From a bacterium (lineage in GTDB: Bacteria; Vulcanimicrobiota; JABDET01): a DNA stretch of 64,000 bases. The notes under the pieces were generated by a model. The model saw nothing but the letters and a program-made list of their open reading frames with translations. It was not told the origin of the DNA and did no database searches. This document shows positions 1 to 33,241 of the stretch, piece by piece (positions within the stretch are counted from its first letter, which is position 1; each line of letters opens with the position of its first letter). The position numbers and the translations under genes were made by a program. The stretch spans positions 1-64,000 of the forward strand of contig JAJYZB010000013.1 of the NCBI GenBank assembly GCA_021800275.1, in the 5' to 3' direction.

Positions 1-134
1 GAATTCAGGGGTTTCCGGGAGTTCAGGGGCTTCCACGATTTCGCCGAGTTCAGGGAATTCAGGAGTTTCCGGGAGTTCAGGGGCTTCCACGATTTCGCCG
101 AGTTCAGGGAATTCAGGAGTTTCAGGGGCTTCAC
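1..134. repeat. 54-bp tandem repeat (18-residue unit) in the PE-rich gene
   Basis: Two almost identical 54-bp units occupy 1-54 and 55-108, differing by one base near the start. A truncated third copy begins at 109. The unit length is a multiple of three, so the frame is kept and each copy encodes EFPELGEIVEAPELPETP. A more diverged, shorter set of the same PE motifs continues to about 290. The array probably continues past the left edge. Confidence 0.85.
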
Positions 135-447
135 ACTCGCAGCATTCTGGCATCTCTGGTGAAATTTCAAAAATGTCAGGAATTTCTGGAGTTTCAGGAG
201 CCTCAGGGATTTCAGGAGTTTCCGGGAGTTCAGGAGTTTCCGGGAGTTCAGGGGCTTCTACGATTTCGCCGAGTTCATGAATTTCAGGGGTTTCAGCAAT
301 TTCCACAGCCTCAATAATAATATCACTGGGGAGATTAGGCTGAGGGTTTATTTTTTCTAGTGGCAGATTTTCGATTGGGCTTGGATTAAAAAATGGATCT
401 CCTACACGACCTATGGGTGGTAAGAAATTCCCTCCTGACACTGCCAT
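1..447 (-). CDS. Pro/Glu-rich repeat protein, 3' end cut by window edge
   Basis: The reading frame starts with ATG at 447 and is open to the left edge (149 codons). An AGGAGG ribosome binding site lies 6 bases upstream. The first ~45 residues are non-repetitive (MAVSGGNFLPPIGRVGDPFF at the start). They are followed by a run in which nearly every third residue pair is PE (PETPELPETPEIPE and similar). Toward the edge an 18-residue unit (EFPELGEIVEAPELPETP) repeats. A CCEC cluster sits around residue 105-110. I see no signal peptide or recognisable catalytic domain. Extended, acidic, proline-spaced repeats suggest a rod-like or disordered spacer, but the function is unknown. The C-terminus and any anchoring domain lie outside the window. 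Upstream, on the minus strand, are a promoter-like pair and a palindrome also found before the two small genes at 15 kb. Confidence 0.75.
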   Translation of the reverse strand, partial: MAVSGGNFLPPIGRVGDPFFNPSPIENLPLEKINPQPNLPSDIIIEAVEIAETPEIHELGEIVEAPELPETPELPETPEIPEAPETPEIPDIFEISPEMPECCECEAPETPEFPELGEIVEAPELPETPEFPELGEIVEAPELPETPEF

Positions 448-599
448 GACCAACCTCCTAAGATTTAGTTTTTATATTCTATCCCTTCTCCAGGTGATTT
501 TTTGGTGATTTTCGTGAATCCCAATTTTATTATATATTTTGTTTATCACGCACTTTTCAGATTAGTAAATAGGCAGAGAACCTAGCTTCATAATATAGA

Positions 600-628
600 A
601 TTATATCACATGACCATTAGTCCATCTA
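600..628 (-). promoter_or_regulatory. Promoter candidate for the PE-rich repeat gene
   Basis: Read on the minus strand, TAGATG (623-628) and TATAAT (600-605) are separated by 17 bases. The -10 matches consensus while the -35 is weak. A transcript from here would have a leader of about 145 bases before the ATG at 447. The box spacing and the distance to the palindrome at 659-673 resemble the arrangement before the genes at 15067 and 15605, which is the main support. Confidence 0.45.
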
Positions 629-658
629 GCATCAATATGTAGATTTTTAGGTGAATTG

Positions 659-673
659 TTAACAAAATGTTAA
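659..673. promoter_or_regulatory. Inverted repeat TTAACA-AAA-TGTTAA (site A)
   Basis: A perfect 6-3-6 palindrome lies 30 bases upstream (minus-strand sense) of the -35-like element of the PE-rich gene. It overlaps the stop codon of the methyltransferase gene. The same element occurs at 14961-14975 and, with one mismatch, at 15503-15517, each upstream of a small low-complexity protein. It looks like a transcription factor half-site pair. The factor is unknown. Confidence 0.5.
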
Positions 674-1920
674 TTAGACTTTTTAGAGTTTTTAGTTTTG
701 GAAACAAGGCGCAGGGCGATAGATTGAGGAAGACTCGCGTATTGGGCAGTGATTTGCGGTGGGAGATTTTTCTCGGCTTCAGGAGATACCTCCGGTTCAA
801 CCAGATCTGTTACAATGAAACCACATTTTTGGAATTCGGCGAAATAATCTCCTAATGTGCGGTGAAAAAAGAGCAGTTTATGCTCATAACTAGTGGGTAG
901 AAACCAGAAAGGTTCTCGACTGAAATAGTATCCTATGATCATGGATCCCCATTCCTCTTTTCTGGGGGCATCTACAGGGACCTGATGCCATCTTGTTCCA
1001 GAACCAGAAAAACAGGGATGAGTAAACACAGTTACAATTCTGCCATCTGGCGCTAAAATACGCGCAAACTCTTGTAAGGCTCCTCTTATATCCTGGCAGT
1101 ACATAAATACATTGTTGCATACAATGGCATCCATGCTTTTGTCTTTTAAGAAGGGCATCCTGCTGATGGAGTCATGGATATATTGGATGCCTGCTGGCTC
1201 TGCTTTTTCTCGAAACTCTGCTTGCTCAAAAAGCTGCTTGGAATTCTCTACCCCGAATACTTTAGCTCCTTTTTGGGCTAACATTCGGGAGAGATATCCT
1301 TGTCCACAGCCTGCATCCAAAATAGTCTGCCCCCTCACTTCTCCAAGAAGGCGAAATAAAATCGGGTCAGTAAAATATCTTCTGGCAAAATCTCCTTGGT
1401 CTCCACAGATTTCTCCCCATGTTTTTGCATTTTCATTCCAAATTTTTTCAACTATTTTGTCAGAAACTTTATTTTTTTCTACCAAGAAATTTTTTGGGAA
1501 TGGCTGCTGCAGATAAGTTTCTTTTGATAAAAAGGAGGAGGGGATTTCTGTTTTATCGCTGTACTCCGCATAATCAATCCCTGGATGCCACAGGCCGCAG
1601 TAAGGGCATTGATAGTCCCAATAATATTTCCACCCCCAAAACTCGCAATTTTTTCGAACGGTGGATAAAGCGCATTTTTTGCAGAAGGGAACTTTTTCTT
1701 TAGGGCAAAAAGCTAAATCTTGAAAATGAAAGGGCTTGCCGCAGTGATCACATAAAAATCTCCAGTGGCGGGAACAGCGTGGAGCTTCACTCCCTAGATC
1801 AAAATCAGCAGGCAGATCCAGATAATTCGGATTGTGATTTTTAATGAGAGAGCAGTACCAACATTTCAAGCAGGAATAAAAGTTCTGTGAAGAGAAGAAC
1901 GATTCCTCTGTTATGCTCAA
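670..1920 (-). CDS. Class I SAM-dependent methyltransferase with N-terminal zinc ribbons
   Basis: 416 residues. The N-terminal ~110 residues hold several CxxC knuckles (CLKCWYC, CDHCGKPF, CKKC, CPYCGLW), so one or more zinc ribbons are likely. From about residue 195 there is a Rossmann methyltransferase: ILDAGCGQGYLSRML is the SAM-binding motif I, and an acidic residue ends the next strand (VFGVENSKQ). MDAIVCNNVFMY and LQEFARILAPDGRIV are typical of the Methyltransf_11 group. The substrate cannot be told. The start is TTG at 1920 with AGGTGAG upstream, so the 5' end overlaps the divergent gene by 8 bases. The zinc-ribbon plus methyltransferase layout resembles rRNA or nucleic-acid modifying enzymes, but that is inference. 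Confidence 0.7.
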   Translation of the reverse strand: MSITEESFFSSQNFYSCLKCWYCSLIKNHNPNYLDLPADFDLGSEAPRCSRHWRFLCDHCGKPFHFQDLAFCPKEKVPFCKKCALSTVRKNCEFWGWKYYWDYQCPYCGLWHPGIDYAEYSDKTEIPSSFLSKETYLQQPFPKNFLVEKNKVSDKIVEKIWNENAKTWGEICGDQGDFARRYFTDPILFRLLGEVRGQTILDAGCGQGYLSRMLAQKGAKVFGVENSKQLFEQAEFREKAEPAGIQYIHDSISRMPFLKDKSMDAIVCNNVFMYCQDIRGALQEFARILAPDGRIVTVFTHPCFSGSGTRWHQVPVDAPRKEEWGSMIIGYYFSREPFWFLPTSYEHKLLFFHRTLGDYFAEFQKCGFIVTDLVEPEVSPEAEKNLPPQITAQYASLPQSIALRLVSKTKNSKKSN

Positions 1921-4768
1921 AGACTCACCTGATCAGAATATTGAAGCTCTGCGTGAAGAACTCCGTCTTCTCCTGAAAGAAAAAGCCATACTTTATGCTG
2001 ATAATGAGCAGCCGATCCGGCTTCGTGACGGGAAATTATCTGCCTGGATGTTTTACAGTTGGACTGTCTCTTTGACCTCCAGGGGAATTCAATTAGCAGC
2101 TCTTTGTTTATTGGACAAATTGAGAGGATTTCGAGCTCCACAAATTGCGACGTTTGGCTATACAGGGATGCCTCTTCTCAGCGCCATCGTTCTTTTAGGA
2201 GAGGGAAGATATACAGGCATTTCGATTAGGGATGAGAGAAAAATCTATGGTTCCTGCAGACAAATTGAAGGTCCAGTGGACAAAAGAAAATCAGTTGTTT
2301 TAGTTGATGATTCTCTCAGCTCAGGCACTTCCATGATTAAGGGAGTTAAAGCTCTTGAAGAGGAAGGATTTGAGGTTGAGGGAGGAATATGCCTGGTTCA
2401 TTTTCCCTGGAGAGGAGGAATGGAAAGAATGCAGGGGCTGGGATACCGAGTTGAGACCCTGTTTGATATATGGAAAGATCTGGAGATGCCTATTCCTGTT
2501 TATATTCCTGGATACAAAAGAGCAGTCTCAGAAAAAGAAAAATGGTTAGATTTAAGGGTTGAGGATGGACTCCATCCCGCTCATGCAGCCCGCAGAGCCG
2601 CTGAAATTTATCTTTCTCAAAAAATGATCCCTCATCCTCCTCACAGGCTTGACCAGGAATATGATGCCAGAGGCGGCACTTTTATCAGCTTTCGTTATCG
2701 TGAAACGGATCACAGATTGGTTAGAGATGGGTTCTGGCATTTCAATCCCGCAGATGCAGATCCTTGTAGAGATGTTATTTTAGCCACCATTAAAACAATT
2801 CATGTTTCCCGCGGAACTCTTACTCTGGAAGAGCTTAAGAAATTGAAGATAGGCGTTACTTTTTTCAGCCCCCTGGAAAAGATTAGTCCCGGAAAATTAG
2901 ATTTTTCTAGATACGGGATCGTGGCCCGCAGTCAGGCTTATGAAACTAAATTAGGGGGGGCTCTCCCTAATACAGAGGTTTATACCAATGAAGTGGAACA
3001 GTACCGTCATGCTCGAGTCAATAATGCGAAAATTTCCCCTTTCGAACCTCATGATCTTTTCCGACACGATCTGACCAAATGTGTAGAACCAGGGGAATAC
3101 TGGCTGCCTTATGGATTCCCGGAGAACAAATTGAATCAGTGGCCTCAAGATCAGACCATAGGTCAAATTCTCACCAGGCGCGCTCAGGAATATTTGTATT
3201 CTGCAGCAGGAAAACCTCTGGCAGGGGAACCGATTCCTGAAAATCTTATTTCAGACCCTGTTTTTGCGGTTTCAGTGACCCTATTTCATAAAGGGATTAT
3301 AGGCTGCGGGGTTACCTGGGGGGATACCCTTGATGCTTGTATTGGCAAAGCGGCAAAGTATGCGTATCAAGATAAAAGATTTGCTCAGAAAAGAAAAGGG
3401 ATCGCAGTGGAAGAGATCAGTTTGTCAGTCTCGATTCTCCATGATAGAGAATGGTTAGGCGAGGTTTCAGAACAGAAAGCCGCGCGAAAAATGAGGAGAG
3501 GGTTGGATTCTCTTTCAGTTCAAAAAGGAAATTTAAAAGGTTTTTTTCTGCCGTATGTTCCTGTTTATTATAACTGGACAAAAGAACAGGTGGTCAAACA
3601 ATTGATGAAAAAAGCGGGGATTGCTCAAGGGCCCTGTGTTTGGTCAACCTATAAAACAGAAAGCTGGCTGAGAAGAGGGAATCGAGTTTGGAAACTGTTG
3701 AATGGCTTCCCTGATCGCTCTGGAGAAGGTTTCACCAGAGAAAATCTTCGAGAGCAAATTTTTCTATTAGGGAATTACATCAATCTCCACTCAATGGCAA
3801 GCGGATTTCCGACTTATCTCAATTTGCCTGTTCAGGGTTTCATCAAAAAAAAGGGAACATCCGCGAGAATTCTTCATGCTTTAGAGGTCTTAGAGATCGC
3901 GGGCAGGATGATGCAGGAACCTTCCTGGCGGAAAACCGCTGTAAATGGGCTTTTATCTTGTCTTCAGTATCTTAAAGTTGAAAAGGGGGAAGCCAGATTA
4001 TCTCTCCCTGGCCAGCCTGCTGCTCCTATGGCTGACTGCGTCCTTTTGACTGCTCTAGCAAATTCGGAAGATTCTCAACTGCATCAGGGTTATTTTCAAA
4101 ATTTAGTAGTCAGGATTAAAAACTTTTTTCAAGATGATGGAAGAATTTCTTATGCTCCAAAAGCAAGAGGATTTGAAACCGACCATGATTTTTTTACAGG
4201 ATCAGCAATTTTGGCTCTGGCATCCTCAGTCAAAGCGACAGGAGAAATTGGCGACCTGAAAGGATTGAAAACTCAATTTGATTGGTTTAAACGCCGATTT
4301 CGAGCTCTTCATCCTTGGGGGATGGTGGGATGGCATCCTCAGGGATGGGGTGCGGTTTATTCGATTCTTAAAGAACCACAGTATGCCGATTTTGTTTTTG
4401 AAATAGCAGATTGGGCATTGGACTGGCAGCAGGAAAAAAGCGGTGCTTTTTTAATTGAGCTGCATCCTTATGGACCAAGTTTTCATACTCTTTTTATCGC
4501 AGAGGGAATAGCAGCTGCCTGGAGAGTGGCGCAGTTGGTTGGGGACAGATCCAGGCAGTCTAAATATGAAGCTTCATGTCAAAGCGCCATGCGTTTTTTA
4601 AGCCAGTTGATGATCTATCCGCAGGATACCTTCTGCATGCCTCAGCCGCATCTGGCAGTTGGTGGGGTAAGAGGGTGTCTTTCAACCTCTGAGGTTAGAA
4701 TTGATTATGTGAGTCATTCTCTTCTAGCGGCTGTTAAGTGTTTTGAGTTAACGTCTGGGTTGCTCTGA
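1913..4768 (+). CDS. Fusion: phosphoribosyltransferase / two AMMECR1-like domains / helical toroid
   Basis: 951 residues. Residues ~20-210 look like a type I phosphoribosyltransferase of the OMP-decarboxylase-pathway (PyrE) kind, with the PRPP-binding loop VVLVDDSLSSGTSM near 127-140. Residues ~254-400 are a degenerate AMMECR1-like segment (GGTFISF, VTFFSPLEKI, LPYGF). Residues ~445-580 are a better copy (VTLFHKGIIGCGVTW, DKRF, ISLSVSIL, GLDSLSV, KAGIAQGPCVW). The last ~370 residues are Trp- and aromatic-rich alpha-helical repeats resembling an alpha/alpha toroid of the glycosidase, epimerase or cyclase type. I do not know a characterised protein with this order. Function is unknown; nucleotide-sugar or glycan chemistry is a guess. 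The start ATG at 1913 has only a weak ribosome binding site, and it is divergent from the methyltransferase with overlapping 5' ends. Confidence 0.7.
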   Translation: MLKDSPDQNIEALREELRLLLKEKAILYADNEQPIRLRDGKLSAWMFYSWTVSLTSRGIQLAALCLLDKLRGFRAPQIATFGYTGMPLLSAIVLLGEGRYTGISIRDERKIYGSCRQIEGPVDKRKSVVLVDDSLSSGTSMIKGVKALEEEGFEVEGGICLVHFPWRGGMERMQGLGYRVETLFDIWKDLEMPIPVYIPGYKRAVSEKEKWLDLRVEDGLHPAHAARRAAEIYLSQKMIPHPPHRLDQEYDARGGTFISFRYRETDHRLVRDGFWHFNPADADPCRDVILATIKTIHVSRGTLTLEELKKLKIGVTFFSPLEKISPGKLDFSRYGIVARSQAYETKLGGALPNTEVYTNEVEQYRHARVNNAKISPFEPHDLFRHDLTKCVEPGEYWLPYGFPENKLNQWPQDQTIGQILTRRAQEYLYSAAGKPLAGEPIPENLISDPVFAVSVTLFHKGIIGCGVTWGDTLDACIGKAAKYAYQDKRFAQKRKGIAVEEISLSVSILHDREWLGEVSEQKAARKMRRGLDSLSVQKGNLKGFFLPYVPVYYNWTKEQVVKQLMKKAGIAQGPCVWSTYKTESWLRRGNRVWKLLNGFPDRSGEGFTRENLREQIFLLGNYINLHSMASGFPTYLNLPVQGFIKKKGTSARILHALEVLEIAGRMMQEPSWRKTAVNGLLSCLQYLKVEKGEARLSLPGQPAAPMADCVLLTALANSEDSQLHQGYFQNLVVRIKNFFQDDGRISYAPKARGFETDHDFFTGSAILALASSVKATGEIGDLKGLKTQFDWFKRRFRALHPWGMVGWHPQGWGAVYSILKEPQYADFVFEIADWALDWQQEKSGAFLIELHPYGPSFHTLFIAEGIAAAWRVAQLVGDRSRQSKYEASCQSAMRFLSQLMIYPQDTFCMPQPHLAVGGVRGCLSTSEVRIDYVSHSLLAAVKCFELTSGLL

Positions 4769-5530
4769 CTTATTTGTGCAAATTGGAGAACAGATCAGAA
4801 CTGGATTTATGTTTGCTTTCAACTCCTTGATCTGGGGGCAGATTTTTTCTTTTTGGATCTCGCCAATGCGCTGCACAGGCATGATGCCTATTAAACTATT
4901 GGTTGCGAAAAATCCATCGGCTGCCAGCGCTTCCTCAAGTGTTATCTCTCTTTCTTCCACAGGTATTCCCAATTGACTTGAATATTGAATTACTTTTGAT
5001 CTTGCGATTCCTGGAAGGATCTTTCCATTTGCTGGAGGAGTGATGAGTTTTCTATGCGCAAAGATGAAAAAATTAGCTCTTGTGGTTTCTAGAATCTTCC
5101 CATCACGGGACACCATTAAGGCATCATGAAAATTATTTTGAACAGCTTTTTCCCACAATTCTTCATAATGCTTACGGTTCGTGGTTTTGTAAGCTGCCAG
5201 GGGTGCAGGCTCAACCACTGAAAGGGTCAGCTTCCATTCTCGCGGAAGTGATTTCGCTTCAAGAATTTGAATGAAAAATTCAGAATCAGGACAATAAGTT
5301 AGCCTGATTTTTTTCCTTCCTAATCCAGAAATTCCATTTTGGATGACTTTTATTATCTCGGAAGGATTAACGTCAATAGGGTAATTTAATTCTCTGCAGG
5401 AATTTTTTAGTCTGGTCCAGTGTTCTTCAAACAGAGCTGGAACTCCATTCACTGCAGAGAATGTTTCAAAAATTCCTTTCCCGTCAGGAAAGTCATCAGA
5501 TGGCGGTAGATGTATTTTTAAAGAGTTCAA
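4748..5530 (-). CDS. pabC: Aminodeoxychorismate lyase-like class IV aminotransferase
   Basis: A PLP enzyme of fold type IV, expected to convert 4-amino-4-deoxychorismate to p-aminobenzoate and pyruvate in folate synthesis. The domain begins at GKGIFETFSAVNG. YKTTNRKHYEEL carries the likely PLP lysine. LETTRANFFIF and LPGIARSKVI are the typical core and phosphate-cup motifs. I chose the TTG at 5530 (260 residues) because an AAAGGA lies about 10 bases upstream and the family domain starts soon after. The frame is open to an ATG at 5605, which would lie deep inside pabB. It overlaps the pabB 3' end in another frame, suggesting translational coupling. The adjacent pabB supports pabC over branched-chain or D-amino acid aminotransferase. 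The 3' end overlaps the convergent fusion gene by 21 bases. Confidence 0.8.
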   Translation of the reverse strand: MNSLKIHLPPSDDFPDGKGIFETFSAVNGVPALFEEHWTRLKNSCRELNYPIDVNPSEIIKVIQNGISGLGRKKIRLTYCPDSEFFIQILEAKSLPREWKLTLSVVEPAPLAAYKTTNRKHYEELWEKAVQNNFHDALMVSRDGKILETTRANFFIFAHRKLITPPANGKILPGIARSKVIQYSSQLGIPVEEREITLEEALAADGFFATNSLIGIMPVQRIGEIQKEKICPQIKELKANINPVLICSPICTNKSEQPRR

Positions 5531-6926
5531 AGAACGCTTTTCCTTTATCCAGAATTTCTTGATATTCCCCTTCAGCAGTAGAATCTGCCACAATGCCTCC
5601 TCCAACCGAAACGTGAGCCACTCTATCTTGAATGACTGCGGTGCGAATCGGCAGATTGAACATGAAATCTCCTGAAAACCCGATCCAGCCTAATGCGCCT
5701 GTATAAACCCCTCGAACAACAGGTTCAATTTCAGCAATAATGCTCATGGCTTTCTTTTTAGGGGCACCGGTGATGGAACCTCCTGGGAAAACTCCTCGTA
5801 GAATTTCTCTTAATCCTGTTTTTGGATTTAATTTTCCTGAAACAGTTGAAACCAGATGGAATACGCTGCCACAAGTTTCAACCCGTGTTAAATCTTTGAC
5901 TTGGATACTTCCTGTTTCACATACTCTTCCCAGATCATTTCTTTCCAGATCCACAATCATGAGGTGTTCAGCGCGATCTTTTTCAGATTGAAGCAGCTCA
6001 TTCATGACAGTCGCTTCTTCTTCAGAATGAATTGGTTTTAGCTTTGTTCCTTTAATTGGGCAGGTTTCAATGAGTTTTCCCTTTTTTTTCAGAAAAAGTT
6101 CAGGGGATGCGCTTAAAATGAAATTTCTCCCTGTATTTAAACAGGCAGATAAAGCAGTTGGATGGGATGTCCTTAAGGTTGAATAAGCGTTCCATGGGTC
6201 TCCATTGAAAGGAAAAGAAAATCTTTGGGATAAATTCGCCTGGTAGATGTTTCCGCGCTTAATATGATCCATGATTTTATTAAAAGCCTGCGCGTATTCC
6301 CCCTGTGTAAAAGAAGTTGTGAAATAAGAATGTTCAACGTGTTTGCTCTTTTTGAATAATTGATTTTCCGACTCAACCTGTTGTTTAATTTTTGAGCGAT
6401 TCTCTGGAAGTTTTCCTTTAGTCAGATGAGGAAGATCGAGAAAAGCGTGGTTGTTCTCAGGGATAGAGAATTTCAGGGAAAGTTTGGATTGGTGATCATA
6501 GATTGAGATTTTGTCGTGGAAAGCAAACCAGACGTCAGAAATCAATAGATCGTCCTCAGGCAGACAGGACAGGTTTTGCAAAGGGTATCCTAACTCATAA
6601 CTCAAGAAGCCAAATGCTCCCGGGGTAAAAAATTGATTTTCATCTAAAAATTCAGAATACCTGGTGCTGCACTGCAGAAGCAGATTTTCTAACACTTCCA
6701 GGGGTTCTCCTTGAAAAAAAGCAGCACCCTCCGGCTGGATAATTTTAATCAGGCTTCCTTTTGCTTCAAAAATTAAAAATGGGTCATGAGCAAGTACACT
6801 GTACTGCCCGTAGGTCCCGCTGAAGAAATTAGAGTCTAAAAAAGCAAAACCTGGATTTTGGGCTTGAGAGGAGCCGGAAATAATCCAATCTTCAGCGGAC
6901 TGTTTTTTCCAGGATTTTGCAGGCAT
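5496..6926 (-). CDS. pabB: Aminodeoxychorismate synthase component I
   Basis: 476 residues, a chorismate-utilising enzyme that adds ammonia to chorismate to give aminodeoxychorismate. The C-terminal catalytic domain shows SASPELFLKKKG, ETCPIKGT, EKDRAEHLMIVDLERNDLGRV and FPGGSITGAPKKKAM. The lysine in PIKGT is the PabB-type active-site residue (anthranilate synthase TrpE has alanine there), so I prefer PabB over TrpE. The glutamine amidotransferase partner PabA is not in the window. The start ATG at 6926 lies inside the preceding gene, overlapping by 35 bases, and pabC follows with a frame overlap. The three genes are probably co-transcribed. Confidence 0.88.
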   Translation of the reverse strand: MPAKSWKKQSAEDWIISGSSQAQNPGFAFLDSNFFSGTYGQYSVLAHDPFLIFEAKGSLIKIIQPEGAAFFQGEPLEVLENLLLQCSTRYSEFLDENQFFTPGAFGFLSYELGYPLQNLSCLPEDDLLISDVWFAFHDKISIYDHQSKLSLKFSIPENNHAFLDLPHLTKGKLPENRSKIKQQVESENQLFKKSKHVEHSYFTTSFTQGEYAQAFNKIMDHIKRGNIYQANLSQRFSFPFNGDPWNAYSTLRTSHPTALSACLNTGRNFILSASPELFLKKKGKLIETCPIKGTKLKPIHSEEEATVMNELLQSEKDRAEHLMIVDLERNDLGRVCETGSIQVKDLTRVETCGSVFHLVSTVSGKLNPKTGLREILRGVFPGGSITGAPKKKAMSIIAEIEPVVRGVYTGALGWIGFSGDFMFNLPIRTAVIQDRVAHVSVGGGIVADSTAEGEYQEILDKGKAFFELFKNTSTAI

Positions 6927-8049: not shown

Positions 8050-10284
8050 ATGAATCTTGATTTAGCATTGAAAAAATACGAAAGAATGGTTGTGTTTAAT
8101 CCTAAAGATGGAGATTCCTATTTTGCGCTTGCCCTTCTTTATGATGCTAAACAGGATGGGATGCAAGCTGCAAAAACATTTCAAAGCGCCCTTGAACATT
8201 CTCCTAAAAGTTCCGCAGTTCGATTTTTTGATGGGTCTTTTTTGGCAAGATTTTCCAAAAAACTTGATCTGGCGGTTCATCAATGGGAAAAAGCCATTGA
8301 ACTGGAACCTTCTATTTTTGCTGATTTAGAGAAACTGATTCCTGAAGATGTCTCTTACCCTTTAAAAGAAAAACTCGCCGCCACTGTTGAGGTATTTGAG
8401 AAAGAAGCCGCGGCGTCTCCTGGCAGCGTTTTTCCTTTGTCCTGTCAGGGATTTGCGTATGGGCTTTGCAAAAGTCTCAAAGAGGGGATTTCTTTTTTTG
8501 ATTCACACATGAAAGCATTGGGCAGCAACTCTGCTTCTCTTTATCTTTATGGGCTTCTTCTTTTCATGGCAGAAAGTTGGGACCCTGCCGCACGGACTTT
8601 TGAAAAAGTGCTTGAAAATGATAAAACGAAAATAGGCGCTTATTATTTTCTTTCTCTCTGCTATTTAAAAGCTGATAAATTATCCCAGGCTGTTCGCTGT
8701 CTGGAAAAGCTGAAGGACACAGATCCCTCTTATGAAAAAGGAATTTATCTGTTGGCAGAAGTTTATTTGAAACTGGGGCGGTATGAGCAGGCTGTTAAAT
8801 TTTTACAGCAAATTATTCAATTCAATCCCCAGGATTCAAAAGCCCATTTTATGCTGGGGCAGTGTTATCAGGAATTATATCGTCTGGATGAAGCGGAAAA
8901 GGCGTATAAACAATCTGTTCAGCTCCAGCCCGAGTTTAAGGAACCTTATTTCAATCTTGGGATGGTTTTGACCCGATTGGGAAAATGGAATGAGGCGATT
9001 GGAAGCTTGAAAGAAGCGGCTAAACTGAGTTCTAAAGATCCCTCTGTTTTTTATCACCTAGGGCTCACCTATAATCAGACTGGTTCTTTTGAAGAAGCCA
9101 TTCATTCTTTTCAAGAGGCAATTTCGATTGAACCGGTTAAAACTCCGGTTGACTGTTATTTAGGGCTTGCTCTTGCTTATGAAAAGATTGATAATTTGAT
9201 TTCTGCGATTGACACTTACAAGAAAGTGTTAGAAAAAACAGGAGGTTCTTCACAGCAGGAATCTTATATACGGTATCATTTGTCTCTCTGTTATCAGAGA
9301 TTAGGAGAATACTCCCTTGCCATGGAGCAGCTGGAAGAAGTTCTCAAATTGAATCCTCAAGATGGTTATGCTGCTTATAATCTTGGATCTGTTTATGCTC
9401 ATTTAGCTCTTATGGGAAAAGCTCAGGATGCTTATTCCAAGGCATGTGAATTAAACCCTAATGATCTGTATGCGCATTTTAATTTAGGAGGTATTTTAGC
9501 TCGAGATGGTTTTGTGGCAGAAGCAAACGAGCAGTTTAAAAAAGCCCTTGAATTGACACCTAAAAATGATGCTGAATTAGCTCTTTATTCAACTCTTCTA
9601 GGTCAGATGGCGGTCAATATTGAAATAGCAAAATTAAATGCCAGATTGAAAGAGTCTTATTTTGAAACGGTAAAAGCCATTATTGGATGCCTGGATGCGA
9701 AAGATAAATATACAGCAGGTCATACCAATCGAGTTTCTGTGATTGCGGCAGAAGTGGGAAAAGTTTTAAACTTGTCAAAAGATGAAACCGATTCTTTAGC
9801 TATTGCCGCTGTCCTGCATGATATTGGGAAAGTTGGAGTTCCAGATGCCATTCTTTTGAAACAGGGAAAACTAACTGCTGAAGAGTTTCAAGTCATGAAA
9901 GAGCATCCTGTTTCAGGAGCGAAAATCTTGGAACAGGTCAGTTTTCCATGGACCCAGGTCGTCAATTATGTGAAACATCATCATGAGAGGTATGATGGTT
10001 CAGGATATCCTGATGGATTAAAAGGGGAAGAGATCCCGATCGGAGCAAGAATTTTATCGGTTTCTGATTTTTTTGATGCTCTGGCAACAGAGAGGCCTTA
10101 TAAAAAAGCGTATCCTATTCCTATTGTGCTTGAGCAGGCTGAAATGCAGAAAGGTAAATCTTTTGATCCCGATGTTATCGCCGCATTAAAAAAAGCGGCT
10201 CCTCGGCTGGAAGCCCTTTATAAACCTGCAGAAGCTTTGACAGAACTACCGACCTGGGAATCTTCCCTTGTTGACAGCGCATGA
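8050..10284 (+). CDS. TPR-repeat protein with C-terminal HD-GYP phosphodiesterase domain
   Basis: 744 residues. Residues ~1-530 are a long array of tetratricopeptide repeats (repeated patterns such as AHFMLGQCYQELYRLDEAEKAY and AAYNLGSVYAHL). Residues ~545-720 are an HD-GYP domain with AGHTNRV, VLHDIGKVGVPD, VKHHHERYDGSGYPDGLKG and SVSDFFDALATERPYK, all metal- and GYP-motif residues present. HD-GYP proteins usually hydrolyse cyclic di-GMP, and the TPR part probably recruits partners. No signal peptide is seen, so it is cytosolic. I chose the ATG at 8050, not the upstream GTG at 8023, because a purine-rich AGGGAG lies just before it. It is divergent from the pabB group and followed closely by the GerMN gene. 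Confidence 0.88.
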   Translation: MNLDLALKKYERMVVFNPKDGDSYFALALLYDAKQDGMQAAKTFQSALEHSPKSSAVRFFDGSFLARFSKKLDLAVHQWEKAIELEPSIFADLEKLIPEDVSYPLKEKLAATVEVFEKEAAASPGSVFPLSCQGFAYGLCKSLKEGISFFDSHMKALGSNSASLYLYGLLLFMAESWDPAARTFEKVLENDKTKIGAYYFLSLCYLKADKLSQAVRCLEKLKDTDPSYEKGIYLLAEVYLKLGRYEQAVKFLQQIIQFNPQDSKAHFMLGQCYQELYRLDEAEKAYKQSVQLQPEFKEPYFNLGMVLTRLGKWNEAIGSLKEAAKLSSKDPSVFYHLGLTYNQTGSFEEAIHSFQEAISIEPVKTPVDCYLGLALAYEKIDNLISAIDTYKKVLEKTGGSSQQESYIRYHLSLCYQRLGEYSLAMEQLEEVLKLNPQDGYAAYNLGSVYAHLALMGKAQDAYSKACELNPNDLYAHFNLGGILARDGFVAEANEQFKKALELTPKNDAELALYSTLLGQMAVNIEIAKLNARLKESYFETVKAIIGCLDAKDKYTAGHTNRVSVIAAEVGKVLNLSKDETDSLAIAAVLHDIGKVGVPDAILLKQGKLTAEEFQVMKEHPVSGAKILEQVSFPWTQVVNYVKHHHERYDGSGYPDGLKGEEIPIGARILSVSDFFDALATERPYKKAYPIPIVLEQAEMQKGKSFDPDVIAALKKAAPRLEALYKPAEALTELPTWESSLVDSA

Positions 10285-10288
10285 TTCT

Positions 10289-11203
10289 ATGGATAAAGGC
10301 ATGAACAGAAGAAAATTAACCTTGTTTCTACTGATTACAGGTTGTTTAATCACAGCGTTTGCGGCATCATGCGGTTTTTTTCACCACAAAATTTATGCCC
10401 AGCTTTATTTTCCCGAAAAGAGCGCTCAGCTGCTGGTTCCAATAACAGTGTCAGTCACTCGATTAACTCCTTCAATTTTGATTTCAGATCTTGAAAAAGG
10501 AGATCCTAATCCAAAGAATCTTCTTCCTCTCTTCCCTGACAAAGGAACTTTTCCTCAGGTTTCAACGGGCGGCAAAACCATCTTCATTAATTTTAAAACC
10601 CCGCCTCCTGCTGAGGAAGCGCCGCTGCTTATTCCAGGTATTTTGGCCACATTTCAACAGCTTCCAAAGTATAAAGCCGTTTTATTTTCCGTGAATGGAA
10701 ATCCTGAAACTCTGGGAGAAGGAGGGGTTGAGTTAGGGAGATTTTCTTTGAGGAAATTTTGGATTAATGATAATCTGGATCTGACTCCATTTCCTTATAT
10801 GACGGGTGAGTATCAAAAAGGAATCGTTTATTTAGAGCTTAAGAGAAGTCATTATCTTGTCCCTGTAACCCTTCGATTTCCTGGCAATATTACGATAGAA
10901 AAGGCCGTGGCCGCTGCTATTTCCGAGTCTCCTGACAGCATGAGTTGGCTTTTAAAAACTCCTCTTCCCTCTGGATTTAAAATTTTATCCGTTTCACGTT
11001 CTCATGACGGAATCGTCAATATTGTCATTCATCCTTCGGGAAGCTCAAGGGGAAATACCCTCGCCAATAGGGCTCTGGCTTTGAGTTTTTGCGGAATTTC
11101 AGGAGTGAAAGATGTGCGAATTAGAGTGGGGACAGGAATTTTTAGTTGGAGACCCTTGCAAAGTAAGCCAAATTTTGTTAATATAGTAAGTAAGAATAAA
11201 TAA
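10289..11203 (+). CDS. GerMN (GerM-like) domain lipoprotein
   Basis: About 304 residues with an N-terminal hydrophobic segment ending in a lipobox-like AASCGF, so a membrane lipoprotein. Residues ~30-150 follow the GerMN pattern (YFPEKSAQLLVPITVSVTR, FPQVSTGGKTIFINF, GILATFQQLPKYKAVLFSVNG). A second similar half follows (VYLELKRSHYLVPVTLRF to IRVGTGIFSW). GerM in Bacillus binds SpoIIQ complex components, and GerMN domains elsewhere accompany cell-wall amidases. The gene immediately precedes an amidase, murI and rph, the same neighbourhood as racE-gerM-rph in Bacillus. The start is ATG 10289 or ATG 10301; neither has a strong ribosome binding site. Confidence 0.75.
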   Translation: MDKGMNRRKLTLFLLITGCLITAFAASCGFFHHKIYAQLYFPEKSAQLLVPITVSVTRLTPSILISDLEKGDPNPKNLLPLFPDKGTFPQVSTGGKTIFINFKTPPPAEEAPLLIPGILATFQQLPKYKAVLFSVNGNPETLGEGGVELGRFSLRKFWINDNLDLTPFPYMTGEYQKGIVYLELKRSHYLVPVTLRFPGNITIEKAVAAAISESPDSMSWLLKTPLPSGFKILSVSRSHDGIVNIVIHPSGSSRGNTLANRALALSFCGISGVKDVRIRVGTGIFSWRPLQSKPNFVNIVSKNK

Positions 11204-11359
11204 AAGTTGATTTGGAAGGAGGTTGTTCGCTCTGCCTGAGGTAGGCTCATTTACTTGGCGCTTGGGGAATTTTGGGGAAATAAGCGCTGGGCATGGGCAG
11301 CAAAAAGGCAGGAGCTTGACAGCTCTGAAAAAAACAATGATTTAACGAAGGGAGAGAGA

Positions 11360-13231
11360 ATGGGGAATAAAATCAGAAAAGTCATTTTTGGAATTATTTT
11401 CTGCCTGGCAGCCAGGACAGTGTTCTGCAGCCAGGTTCCGCAGCTGGTGGTTTATGGTCAACCTGTTGTGCTGTCAGGCATTAAGATTCAAAATAATTCT
11501 ATTTATCTGGCAGCAGATAACCCGATCCTAAAGCAAATAGCCGCGATTTTAGGAGAAAAATTTAAGTACGACCCGTCACAGAACCAGATTATGGTGGTCA
11601 GCCATCACCACTACTCCTTTATTTTCCCATCAGGACTTGTTCTTCATGGAGTAGGGATCCCTTTTATTCCTCATCCTTTGTTATCCAGGGGTCAGTGGTA
11701 TTATCCCTTAAACAGTTATGCCAGCGCTTTTCACGCAAGCCTTGTTTCAAGTCCAGAACAAAATCGTTGGTATCTTGATCCTACGATTTTGGGAATGGCT
11801 GTTGATTTCAAAAAGAATGCAGTGAAGTTAGAGGTTCACTCGTCTAATCGTATTGAACCAAATGTCAAGATTCACGCCAAGCAGCACGAGATTACAGGTA
11901 AAATTCCATCCGCTTTTCTTTCTTCAAAAGTGACTCCTCCGACTCCTCCGATTCACAGCTTTATTACAAAGATCTCCTTTTATCAATATCACGTTGCTCC
12001 GAACGTGGTTGGATTTGTGATCCATTTCCAACCTGGGACTGTAAATTGGAACCTGAAGTCTAATCATAACGGCACAAAGTTTTCCTTAAAGTTCTCATAT
12101 ACTGGAATCACTAAGGGCATCGCTGCTGTTAAGCAGCCCATTTTGAAACAACTGTTCCAGCCTCAACCCCAGCAGAAGCCTGTTGGTACAGTTTTAGCTC
12201 AGGCTCCTTCAACAGCTTATCCCCCACCTACCTCTTTGACTGGCATTCATTTTAAAACAGGGAAGAAAGGACAATTTGAGGCTGTAGTTAGGCTGTCTGG
12301 AAGCACTCCTTATGTGTGGCATCAATTGAAACCACCTGACAATCGTTTTTTTATTGATTTTCTGGATACTACTAAAAATGTTGAAAAAGGGTTGAGGTAT
12401 AAGAGTTCTCTCTTAAACAAGATCAGACTTGCTCAATTTCAAGCTGCTCCTGTTCCAGTAACAAGACTGGTTTTTGCGCCTTATTCTCCTATTCATGTTT
12501 TTTTAAAAGACACCAGAAACGGTATAAGAATTTCTTTGTATCCAGTTCTTCAAAAAGTGGCTTTAAAAAATTTGGGAAATTTAACAGGGGAGGGTTTCAC
12601 TTCAATTTTACCTGAAACAGCGCCTCTTGCTGCTTTTAAAAGAAATCATATTACAATTGCTCTGGATCCAGGACATGGAGGGGAAGACACCGGAGCCATT
12701 GGTCCAGGCGGTTTGGAAGAAAAAAATGTGACTCTGGATGTCGGATTGAGGCTGCGGGCTCTTCTTAAACAGGATGGATTTCATGTCGTGATGACCAGAA
12801 CAACGGATACCGAATGTCTGGGATATCAAGGCACTGCTGTGGCAGAGCTTCAGTGTAGAGCCAATGTGGCAAATTATGACCATGCTGCGTTATTTATGGC
12901 TATTCACATCAATGCTTCTTACTATCCCTGGGTTCACGGAGTATCAACTTGGTGGTATAAACCTATGGATAAACCGTTGGCTCAGTTTGTTCAAAATTCG
13001 CTTGCCAAACGTTCAGGATTTTTAAATTTAGGAATCCGAAAAGCGCCTTTTTATGTTTTAAGGCATACATTCATGCCTGCTGTTCTGGTTGAATTAGGAT
13101 TTATTACGAATTTGAAAGACGAACATAAATTGGAAAATCCTGATTTTAGGGAAAAGTTAGCTGAAATTTTAAATCAGGGCATAGAGAATTACGTGCGAGC
13201 ATCTCTGACACACAGCCATTCTAATTTTTAA
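11360..13231 (+). CDS. N-acetylmuramoyl-L-alanine amidase (Amidase_3) with AMIN-like region
   Basis: 623 residues. The N-terminus is a signal peptide (GNKIRKVIFGIIFCLAARTVFC). It is followed by a copper-amine-oxidase-N-like or AMIN-like beta region. The C-terminal Amidase_3 domain shows ALDPGHGGEDTGAIG, GLEEKNVTLDVG, FMAIHINAS and PAVLVELGFITN. These give the zinc ligands (His, Glu, His) and the catalytic Glu. The enzyme should cleave the amide between muramic acid and the stem peptide in the periplasm, in cell separation or remodelling. I chose the ATG at 11360 because GAAGGGAGAGAG precedes it and it opens the signal peptide; the frame extends to a TTG at 11255 with no such features. Confidence 0.88.
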   Translation: MGNKIRKVIFGIIFCLAARTVFCSQVPQLVVYGQPVVLSGIKIQNNSIYLAADNPILKQIAAILGEKFKYDPSQNQIMVVSHHHYSFIFPSGLVLHGVGIPFIPHPLLSRGQWYYPLNSYASAFHASLVSSPEQNRWYLDPTILGMAVDFKKNAVKLEVHSSNRIEPNVKIHAKQHEITGKIPSAFLSSKVTPPTPPIHSFITKISFYQYHVAPNVVGFVIHFQPGTVNWNLKSNHNGTKFSLKFSYTGITKGIAAVKQPILKQLFQPQPQQKPVGTVLAQAPSTAYPPPTSLTGIHFKTGKKGQFEAVVRLSGSTPYVWHQLKPPDNRFFIDFLDTTKNVEKGLRYKSSLLNKIRLAQFQAAPVPVTRLVFAPYSPIHVFLKDTRNGIRISLYPVLQKVALKNLGNLTGEGFTSILPETAPLAAFKRNHITIALDPGHGGEDTGAIGPGGLEEKNVTLDVGLRLRALLKQDGFHVVMTRTTDTECLGYQGTAVAELQCRANVANYDHAALFMAIHINASYYPWVHGVSTWWYKPMDKPLAQFVQNSLAKRSGFLNLGIRKAPFYVLRHTFMPAVLVELGFITNLKDEHKLENPDFREKLAEILNQGIENYVRASLTHSHSNF

Positions 13232-13366
13232 GGATTGACACGCCTTTCTACTTGCCAGAAGAAGGCAGACATTCTGTGGTCTGCTAATCTGGGCCGTCAT
13301 AGGAGTTAAATCGCTGAATTTGCAGATTCGAAGGGTCAAGTGACTCGTGTGGCGAAACTGGAAATC

Positions 13367-14242
13367 ATGAAGATTGGCGCATTTGATTCTGGAGTTGGTG
13401 GTTTTACAGTTCTCAAGCCGCTTTTAAAACAAATGCCGAATCTATCGGTTGTTTATCTGGCTGACACAGCTCATGTCCCTTACAGCGGAAAAACACCGGA
13501 GGAATTGGAGATTATTATTCGGAAGATTTTAAAGTTTTTTTTAGAAAAAAAGGTAGAGGCTGTTATTTTTGCCTGCAACACTTCATCAGCCCTTGTTCTG
13601 CCAAAAGTTCGCCCGTACTCTTTTGTCCCTTTTTATGGGGTTGTGGGTCCAGGGATTAAATCTGCTTTAAAAGCCACGCAAGGAAAGGGGATCGGAGCTG
13701 CAGCCAATGAAGTTACCGCAAAAAGCGGGATTTTTAAAAAAATGATTCATGAAAAAGATCCCGCTATTCCTGTTTTTGAGCAGAGCTGTCCCGAACTTGT
13801 TTCTTTGGTGGAAAAAGGGGATCTTTCTTCTTCAAGAACAGTTTCTGCTGTAAGAGAATACATGAAGCCTATTCGAGGGAAGATTGATGCTTTGATTTTA
13901 GGGTGCACTCATTTTCCCTTCTTGAAGAAACAGTTTGAAGATTCTCTGCCTGACTGCGCAGTCATTGATCCAGCCAATTCTTTGGCAGAAGAGTTCGCTG
14001 AAGATTTTAAAAATAAAAAAGTTTATCATGGAATTGACTCTCGTCAAAAGTTGAATAAAGGGAATATTGTTTTTAATGAAGCCGTAAAAAATCATGAACT
14101 TTTTGTGACAAAACAATCTCCTCATATAGAGGAATGGGCTGAAAAAGTCCTGGGTTGGAAGGTGAAGGCAGAACTGCTGGATCTTAAATTTATTCGCCCC
14201 TGGACTCCTGAGGAGGTCGTTTCTTGTGAAACCCCGAGTTGA
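13367..14242 (+). CDS. murI: Glutamate racemase
   Basis: 291 residues. It interconverts L- and D-glutamate for peptidoglycan. [19 protein letters not shown] is the family N-terminus. The two catalytic cysteines are seen in [12 protein letters not shown] and LGCTHFPFL. The ATG at 13367 matches the family start; the frame is open from a GTG at 13340, which would add nine residues. It sits between the amidase and rph, and its last bases overlap the start of rph. Confidence 0.93.
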
Positions 14243-32470: not shown

Positions 32471-33241
32471 ATGCAGAACACTTTTAAAATTTACGAAAAT
32501 TTAAGACAGACCTTTGGAGATGAACCTGCAAGGGTGCTGACAGTTACTATTGGTCAGGTTTATGAAGATTTGGCTAATGTCGTGACAAAAGTGGAATTTA
32601 ACGAACTGAAAGAAGTTGTAAGAGAGTTGGCAGAAGCTCAGAAGCGAACTGAACTCAAAGTGGAGGAGTTGGCAGAAGCTCAGAAGCGAACTGAACTCAA
32701 AGTGGAGGAGTTGGCAGAAGCTCAGAAGCGAACTGAACTCAAAGTGGAGGAGTTGGCAGAAGCTCAGAAGCGAACTGAGGAAACGGTAAGACAGCTTGTG
32801 ACTGGCATAGATGATGTAAAAAAACAGTTAGGCGGTCTTTCCGCAGATGTAGGCTATGGACTTGAAGATAGATATCTTCCTCTCATGAAACCTTTTGTTT
32901 TGCATCAGTACGGCGCTCAACTCCCCACCACTGCTCAAAGGAAATTCATCCTTTATCCTAACGGGAAAAGAGATGAAGTGAATTTTTATTTAGAAGGGGA
33001 ATTAAAAGGGGAAAAAGTTTATTTTATAGGAGAAGCAAAAACAAAGCCAGGGAAAAAGGATGTTGAACAATTTAATGCTGTGTTGAAGCGTTTAAAAGTT
33101 CATTTCAATGCTGAAGTGAAAGGGTTTATGGTGGGGTATCTTTTCCCTCCAGAAGTGGAGGACTATGTAAAAGAAGAGTATCCTGAGATTGATTTATTCA
33201 AGACTTATGAGATTGAGGAGATTGCCCGAAAAGCTTCTTGA
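32471..33241 (+). CDS. Coiled-coil PD-(D/E)XK nuclease-like protein (DUF3782-like)
   Basis: 256 residues. Residues ~40-110 are a coiled coil made of a 14-residue repeat ([14 protein letters not shown]) in four copies. The C-terminal half looks like a restriction-endonuclease fold: [13 protein letters not shown], then [19 protein letters not shown], the D and E-x-K of a PD-(D/E)XK centre. Proteins with this make-up are often annotated DUF3782 and have unknown targets. AGGAGG is 12 bases before the ATG, longer than usual. It stands alone, with its own promoter, at the end of the accessory region. Confidence 0.75.
32624..32778. repeat. 42-bp tandem repeat in the coiled-coil gene
   Basis: Three identical 42-bp units start at 32624, 32666 and 32708, and a 29-bp partial fourth starts at 32750. 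Each unit encodes a 14-residue coiled-coil segment. Perfect identity between copies points to recent expansion or ongoing recombination, so copy number may vary between strains. Confidence 0.92.

Follow-up and report, generated by a model that had tools for sequence, protein, structure and literature searches.

We identified a rare bacterial fusion protein that joins a PRPP-binding phosphoribosyltransferase (PRTase) domain, two AMMECR1 domains and a predicted C-terminal (alpha/alpha) toroid of the GH76/AGE/AprG fold. Full-length homologues (31-47% identical) were found as five genes in three phyla, this one included. All five lie within 2 kb of an ORF with tandem acid-rich, mostly Pro-rich repeats, which is directly next to the fusion in three of them. 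This suggests a new way of decorating ribosomally made peptides and a probable substrate for the AMMECR1 domain, although neither PRPP use nor peptide modification or leader removal was measured. In the following, the window is the whole analyzed stretch of 64,000 nucleotides (contig JAJYZB010000013.1, assembly GCA_021800275.1); C17, C28 and C30 are contigs of this genome. The five fusions are that of the window, those of Cellulomonas alba and a Syntrophobacteraceae MAG, and two named here CPR1 and G144.

Domain architecture of the fusion protein

The initial annotation described a 951-residue chain with a PRPP-binding loop, a degenerate and a well-formed AMMECR1-like segment, and a Trp-rich toroid-like C-terminus. 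Our analysis confirmed this observation, including the exact ORF with its ATG start (Table 1). Sequence profiles and predicted structure agree. The PRTase domain matched NCBIfam pyrE (4e-12), human OPRT (9.6e-10) and, in a Foldseek search with the predicted structure, 2wns (1.6e-5). The PRPP loop VVLVDDSLSSGTSM, which fits the pattern hhhhDDxxxSGxS, is kept in four of the five homologues and is altered to VVFVDESMTFGGS in G144. In the catalytic loop, Arg106, Lys110 and Gly113 are kept in all five, whereas the Lys that normally follows the Arg is kept in only one.

AMMECR1-II was detected by Pfam at residues 461-579 (2.2e-18, 66.8 bits against a gathering cut-off of 25). AMMECR1-I was found as a separate hit at C17:2585-2989 in a PF01871 search of the genome (E 5e-5). 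Profile-profile comparison (hhalign) with genuine AMMECR1 proteins gave a probability of 97% over 160 columns (4e-11) for AMMECR1-I and 92% for AMMECR1-II. Gly464-Cys465 of the RGC motif is invariant in domain II and absent from domain I. An AlphaFold2 model of residues 205-606 matched only the three solved AMMECR1 proteins at E <= 1e-3 (1vaj, 2.3e-9; 1wsc; 1zq7). The full-length model retrieved GH76, AprG, YihS/AGE and GH105 toroids and OPRTs. The pLDDT values are modest (59.6 and 64.9), because the alignments hold only 4 sequences. A sequence search of the toroid profile against PDB found nothing real.

Thus, both conditions that had been named in advance as able to overturn the annotation turned out in its favor: region 445-580 is AMMECR1-like, and residues 1-210 have a PRTase fold. 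Small corrections concern the extents of AMMECR1-I (about 221-388 instead of 254-400) and of the toroid (about 600-948 instead of 580-951). The annotated coordinates also missed the likely partner genes, a methyltransferase and a repeat peptide. The same domain order is present in four other full-length proteins, so it is a real architecture and not an assembly or frameshift artifact. The interpretation given with the annotation was also supported, since all four domain assignments survived. However, its phrase "an enzyme with predictable chemistry" needs qualification: PRPP binding is predictable, but the orotate-contacting region is rewritten, and the acceptor is probably not orotate.

Table 1. 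Features of the fusion gene and its surroundings (positions in the window)
Position	Strand	Feature	Remarks
1913..4768	+	PRTase-AMMECR1-AMMECR1-toroid fusion gene	951 aa
1913..2542	+	OPRT-like phosphoribosyltransferase domain	residues 1-210
2228..2251	+	OPRT-type catalytic loop RDERKIYG	residues 106-113
2294..2335	+	PRPP-binding loop VVLVDDSLSSGTSM	residues 128-141
2573..3076	+	AMMECR1 domain I	residues 221-388; degenerate but full domain, lacks the Cys motif
3206..3661	+	AMMECR1 domain II	residues 432-583; keeps Gly464-Cys465
3710..4756	+	C-terminal alpha/alpha toroid, predicted GH76/AGE/GH105/AprG fold	residues 600-948; W807 H808 D833 T859 E864 R920 R929 D931 H935 invariant in seven aligned proteins
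670..1920	-	Class I SAM methyltransferase with Cys-rich, Zn-finger-like N-terminus	head-to-head with the fusion; 37% identical partner beside the CPR1 fusion
1..447	-	Repeat peptide ORF (ATG at 447)	149 codons before the contig end; 26% Asp+Glu, 21% Pro; remaining part matches the end of contig C30
454..459	-	AGGAGG ribosome-binding site	6 nt before the repeat-peptide ATG
1..252	-	Tandem array within the repeat peptide	units of 9-54 nt encoding PELGEIVEAPELPETPEF

Relation to known enzymes and systems

To test whether the fusion is a housekeeping orotate PRTase, we compared it with PyrE. It shares the fold, the PRPP loop and the Arg/Lys/Gly of the catalytic loop, but scored 46.2 bits against the curated pyrE cut-off of 106.8. 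In a genome search, it reached 50.6 bits, and a separate PyrE candidate on C28 scored better (62.4 bits, also below the cut-off). The DR motif after the last core strand, which contains the orotate-binding Arg, is replaced by (H/G/N/A)F(P/K): LVHFPW, LVGFKH, LVNFPW and LVAFPW, against LVDR/IVDR/LVNR in genuine PyrE sequences. G144 was left out of this comparison. The separate PyrE candidate and the lost orotate motif ruled out this role. The fusion is also below the cut-off of TIGR04335 (AmmeMemoRadiSam protein A), and no MEMO or AmmeMemo radical-SAM gene was found among its neighbors. A canonical AMMECR1-MEMO pair is encoded on C28. The genome has its own proteins for these jobs, so the fusion is not doing them. 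Memo-Ammecr1 systems are the subject of work from 2019 cited in PMC7159879.

The toroid is closest in fold to 6y8f (best E 7.6e-6, TM 0.67), at about 8-14% identity to GH76 mannanases, YihS/AGE isomerases, GH105/GH88 and AprG. No Asp-Asp pair corresponding to the catalytic GH76 pair (D136-D137 in the 6y8f entry) is invariant in the seven aligned toroids, which have their own invariant set W-H, D, T, E, R, R-x-D-x-x-x-H. Ter-type biosynthetic modules combine a PRTase with an ATP-grasp, as does the CPR1 locus, but they use other PRTase families (PRTase_2 gave only E 0.23), and no Ter genes were seen.

We also considered and rejected a mobile or phage origin of the locus: no phage match and no viral-contig relative were found in two scans, and on plasmids there were only two distant toroid matches; a second query added only pyrE/pyrF-type matches. 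A defense system was rejected as well, with a PADLOC value of only 0.05, and no RNA element was found in positions 1-6000. Two strong hits from a homologue search (G216 and G496) are PyrE-type proteins with an extra N-terminal domain and not relatives.

Repeat peptides and possible tailoring genes near the fusion

Next, we analyzed the genomic context. Each of the five loci has a strong tandem array (TRF score >= 100) within 2 kb of the fusion. The background of 6 arrays in 250 kb predicts 0.096 arrays per locus, corresponding to a probability of about 6e-6 for five of five. The arrays encode acid-rich repeats with different sequences (PELPETPEF, PDHSEV, GIEAPEP, RVEARPK, RPDVTDI). When repeat copies were chosen by position or DNA seed, they differed mostly at third codon positions in the two arrays tested (142/119/538 and 19/7/50), indicating that these peptides are translated and constrained. 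The repeat sequences are not homologous between loci; they share only acidity and, mostly, proline, and no common leader was found. In the window genome, a TPR protein also has SPEPFKLPETPKPI linker repeats, showing that Pro/acid repeats are not unique to this locus. These two points would fit a fusion that is an independent metabolic enzyme with unrelated structural or surface proteins nearby by chance. We consider this very unlikely given the five-of-five association, the peptide-maturase-type neighbors and the gene overlaps described below.

In C. alba, the fusion, the repeat peptide and a 2OG-Fe oxygenase overlap by a few bases (9938-12796, 12786-13619 and 13616-14227), the mark of one transcription and translation unit. 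In G144, the peptide ends just before the reading frame of the fusion, and in the Syntrophobacteraceae MAG it starts 45 nt after the fusion. The peptide gene is not always contiguous with the fusion: the methyltransferase lies between them in the window, and an ATP-grasp gene in CPR1, where the peptide has no sure start codon. The methyltransferase was found in 2 of 147 genomes of the phylum, both of them fusion carriers, adjacent each time.

We then searched the loci for peptide-maturase-type genes. In the MAG, a RiPP radical-SAM C-methyltransferase (TIGR03975) scored 550 bits against a cut-off of 282. CPR1 has an MvdC/D-type ATP-grasp (MvdC-type, 1e-48) and C. alba a 2OG oxygenase nearest to YhhC (5e-7), both family matches below cut-off. 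Beside the window gene, only the methyltransferase was present, and no ATP-grasp, exporter, protease or classical RiPP enzyme was seen in the flanking genes read. With one locus of five above a curated cut-off, the presence of known RiPP tailoring enzymes does not settle the assignment either way, and the same holds for export and proteolysis, for which genes are present beside a relative of the toroid. This stand-alone relative in Rhizobium sits between a radical-SAM gene and a HlyD plus peptidase-ABC exporter, near a short peptide with Gly-Asp repeats. Multi-core graspetides and other multi-core RiPPs similarly have one precursor with many core repeats beside tailoring enzymes (PMC5934393, PMC8939145). 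In the loci studied here, however, the shared enzyme is the fusion, whose domains are not mentioned in the graspetide survey. A literature search found no paper on AMMECR1, phosphoribosyltransferase and peptide together, and a search for PRPP and RiPP gave nothing relevant.

A proposed maturase of repeat-core peptides

We propose that the fusion is a multifunctional maturase of a ribosomally made, repeat-core peptide, a RiPP-type system (probability about 0.6). In this view, the neighboring gene makes a long peptide of short repeats, each with one or more Asp/Glu, usually with Pro. The AMMECR1 domains and/or the toroid would grip the repeats, the Cys-bearing AMMECR1-II being the likelier catalytic one. 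The OPRT-type domain would use PRPP to put a 5-phosphoribosyl group on the repeats, most plausibly on the acidic side chains. The toroid, whose fold relatives are sugar hydrolases, epimerases/isomerases and an aldol-transfer enzyme, would remodel or trim that sugar. Locus-specific partners (methyltransferase here; ATP-grasp, radical-SAM C-methyltransferase or 2OG-Fe oxygenase elsewhere) would add further changes. The domains, the PRPP motif, the association with the repeat ORF and the coding constraint on the repeats were shown by our analysis. That the peptide is the precursor and substrate is inferred and likely, whereas the chemistry from gripping of the repeats to sugar remodeling is a tentative conjecture and was not tested.

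Two other explanations also involve the peptide, but we consider both unlikely. First, the PRTase domain may only sense PRPP, as regulatory PRTase-fold proteins do, and the AMMECR1 domains and the toroid may modify the peptide without a phosphoribosyl step. This is in line with the existence of AMMECR1-toroid proteins without a PRTase, some of them exported, with the toroid relative in a RiPP-like cluster, with the altered PRPP loop of G144 and with the loss, in most of the proteins, of the Lys that follows the Arg of the catalytic loop. In four of the five proteins, however, the PRPP loop and most of the catalytic loop are kept at 41-47% overall identity. Second, the peptide may be a carrier whose acidic side chains hold a growing small molecule, as LysW-type carrier proteins hold intermediates on a Glu, with the fusion building a ribose-derived or nucleotide-like metabolite that is then released. 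The many identical acidic sites per chain, the ATP-grasp in CPR1 and the combination of a PRTase with a sugar-type toroid fit this view. In contrast, known carrier proteins use one conserved attachment site and not long divergent arrays, radical-SAM C-methyltransferases and 2OG oxygenases usually modify peptides themselves, and the ATP-grasp was seen in only one of five loci.

The evidence does not exclude a new RiPP class, which we regard as possible but tentative: PRPP-dependent (phospho)ribosylation of acidic residues in long repeat-core peptides by a single chain, in which AMMECR1 domains hold or act on the peptide and a toroid remodels the sugar. This would give the AMMECR1 domain its first substrate type. 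AMMECR1 is conserved from archaea to man and has no settled biochemical role. Here, it is tied in one chain to a PRPP-binding domain and a sugar-enzyme fold, and by genome position to a peptide with many near-identical sites. This makes its function directly testable with a natural substrate candidate and built-in replicates (dozens of repeats per chain). If the proposed chemistry holds, it would add PRPP-dependent glycosylation to the list of RiPP modifications.

Domain composition and homologues of the fusion protein

To test the proposed domain order, we first analyzed the intact open reading frame with sequence profiles. Pfam detected an AMMECR1 domain at residues 461-579 (2.2e-18) and a weak PRTase match, and NCBIfam detected pyrE at residues 37-174 (4e-12). 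A phmmer search against PDB returned human OPRT (9.6e-10) and the AMMECR1 protein PH0010 (6.9e-8). When the whole genome was searched with PF01871, this gene was hit twice, at residues about 461-580 and about 225-359 (E 4e-13 and 5e-5, respectively). Profile-profile comparison of each region (4 homologues) with genuine AMMECR1 proteins gave 97% over 160 columns for the first AMMECR1 domain and 92% over 111 columns for the second.

Next, structure prediction was performed. The AlphaFold2 model of residues 205-606 (pLDDT 65) matched only AMMECR1 structures at E <= 1e-3. The full-length model (pLDDT 60, best in the toroid) gave 78 PDB matches at E <= 1e-3, led by GH76 mannanases, AprG, YihS/AGE isomerases and, for the N-terminus, OPRTs. 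The initial annotation had stated in advance that its reading of a PRTase-AMMECR1-AMMECR1-toroid fusion would fall if region 445-580 were not AMMECR1-like or if the first 210 residues lacked a PRTase fold. Neither was the case: the observed fusion is real, and its interpretation is supported.

Full-length relatives were found in bacterium CPR1 (42-43%), in a genome of the same phylum (G144; 31%), in a Syntrophobacteraceae MAG (47%), and in Cellulomonas alba (42%). No further full-length match was detected in 149 phylum genomes beyond these, nor in 395, 397, 222, and 56 genomes around the MAG and Cellulomonas. The fusion is also lacking in the same-genus genome G001. The closest relative is in another phylum than that of the window genome, from which we infer that horizontal transfer is likely.

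Genomic context of the fusion genes

The fusion gene lies head-to-head with a gene for a methyltransferase with a Cys-rich N-terminus. A 37% identical relative lies beside the CPR1 fusion in a different orientation. A two-member profile found this methyltransferase in 2 of 147 phylum genomes, both of which carry the fusion, but not in G144, Cellulomonas, or the MAG. Behind the methyltransferase, a peptide ORF preceded by an AGGAGG site runs off the contig. The end of another contig (C30) carries the same repeat in the same reading direction and ends in a stop (...PEIHELGEIYHGGPQPL). Thus, the two contig ends probably belong to one gene broken by the repeat, although this join is inferred. At the other end of the fusion gene, aminotransferase class IV and chorismate-binding genes (pabC/pabB type) overlap each other by 110 bp, and the first also overlaps the end of the fusion by 21 bp.

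Features at the fusion locus and at other loci examined (L numbers designate individual loci)
Location	Strand	Feature
window 1913-4768	+	fusion ORF, 951 aa
window 670-1920	-	methyltransferase
window 1-447	-	repeat peptide ORF
window 4748-6926	-	aminotransferase class IV and chorismate-binding genes
window 32624-32778		perfect 42-nt tandem repeat, 3.7 copies
L015:4045-5619		OPRT-like PRTase joined to PQQ-type beta-propeller
L016:6387-7949		OPRT-like PRTase joined to PQQ-type beta-propeller
L017:4806-6440		OPRT-like PRTase joined to PQQ-type beta-propeller
L011 (two genes)		OPRT-like PRTase joined to PQQ-type beta-propeller
L040:5919-7691		toroid protein without PRTase
L041:1639-3186		toroid protein without PRTase
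L013:9812-11455		toroid protein without PRTase
L026:6068-7726		toroid protein without PRTase
L027:3272-3493		short Rhizobium peptide
L042:4478-5461		PyrE behind a PilZ-like domain
L043:4683-5678		PyrE behind a PilZ-like domain
L063:6443-7288 (contig C10 of the window genome)		TPR protein with linker repeat
L025, upstream of the G144 repeat peptide	-	protein resembling an L,D-transpeptidase

The other four loci each contain an acid-rich repeat ORF, with the repeats PDHSE(V/T) in Cellulomonas (some 25 copies), GIEAPEP in CPR1, RVE(A/M)R... in the MAG, and RPDVTDI in G144. Upstream of the G144 repeat peptide, a protein was seen that, judged by eye, resembles an L,D-transpeptidase without the catalytic Cys. 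Tandem arrays with a TRF score >= 100 were detected within 2 kb in 5 of 5 loci, against a background of 6 in 250 kb. Since the 2-kb limit was chosen after the loci had been seen, the resulting value of 6e-6 is a guide rather than a formal P value. Among the alternative explanations, neighborhood by chance is the least likely. Within the window genome, a TPR protein has a SPEPFKLPETPKPI linker repeat, which is similar in flavor to the repeat peptide but unrelated in position. The perfect 42-nt tandem repeat of the window has a length that is a multiple of three, so it may encode a 14-residue repeat.

We also compared the repeat copies at the nucleotide level. They differ mainly at third codon positions, with 142/119/538 pairwise differences (first/second/third position) in Cellulomonas and 19/7/50 in the window. 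Copies of one array are not independent, but the direction is clear. Additional partner genes were found at three loci. In CPR1, an ATP-grasp gene lies between peptide and fusion (MvdC model 1e-48, below its cut-off). In the MAG, a radical-SAM protein is encoded beyond the peptide (TIGR03975, 550 bits, above the cut-off of 282). In Cellulomonas, a 2OG-Fe oxygenase gene overlaps the end of the peptide gene (YhhC model 5e-7, below cut-off).

Relatives of the toroid and PRTase domains

The C-terminal half also exists alone. A genome reached through the phylum of the MAG (G238) encodes a 590-aa protein with a Tat-like signal (judged by eye), an AMMECR1 domain (1.4e-8), and the toroid. Thioclava and Rhizobium plasmids carry 552- and 528-aa relatives of the toroid, respectively. 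We read their N-terminal half as a diverged AMMECR1 domain, but this was not supported by Pfam. The gene for the Rhizobium relative is located between a radical-SAM gene and a HlyD plus peptidase-ABC exporter. A short peptide with a GG-type leader and Gly-Asp repeats is encoded nearby and is a candidate RiPP precursor. Among the toroid proteins without PRTase listed in the table, some are clearly AMMECR1-toroid proteins, and several have signal or lipoprotein-like N-termini; those in L041, L013, and L026 are encoded near pilus or secretion genes. Across seven toroids, W807, H808, D833, T859, E864, R920, R929, D931, and H935 (window numbering) are invariant, suggesting a likely active site.

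A second fusion family in the phylum of the window genome joins an OPRT-like PRTase domain to a PQQ-type beta-propeller; in L015 to L017, a response-regulator-like gene lies next door. In two genomes, PyrE is preceded by a PilZ-like domain (named by eye), an unusual link of pyrimidine synthesis to a c-di-GMP-type domain.

Relation to known systems and proposed chemistry

Multi-core RiPP precursors are already known. What differs here is the domain architecture of the fusion, which we found in no described protein. No paper combining AMMECR1, phosphoribosyltransferase, and peptide was found in the literature searched, which lacks most subscription papers, so this is not proof of novelty. The graspetide survey mentions neither domain.

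PRPP binding by the fusion is predicted from its loop. In comparison with genuine PyrE proteins, the motif that holds orotate (LVDR, with an Arg of established role in OPRT) is replaced by LV-x-F-(P/K), so the acceptor probably differs. Which residue is modified and what the AMMECR1 domains do are conjecture. A pathway in which the peptide serves as a carrier, and a PRTase domain that senses PRPP without catalysis, are rival explanations. A PRTase that no longer takes orotate, joined to a sugar-type toroid and placed beside a peptide with dozens of acidic sites, is most simply read as an enzyme that puts a ribose-derived group on that peptide.
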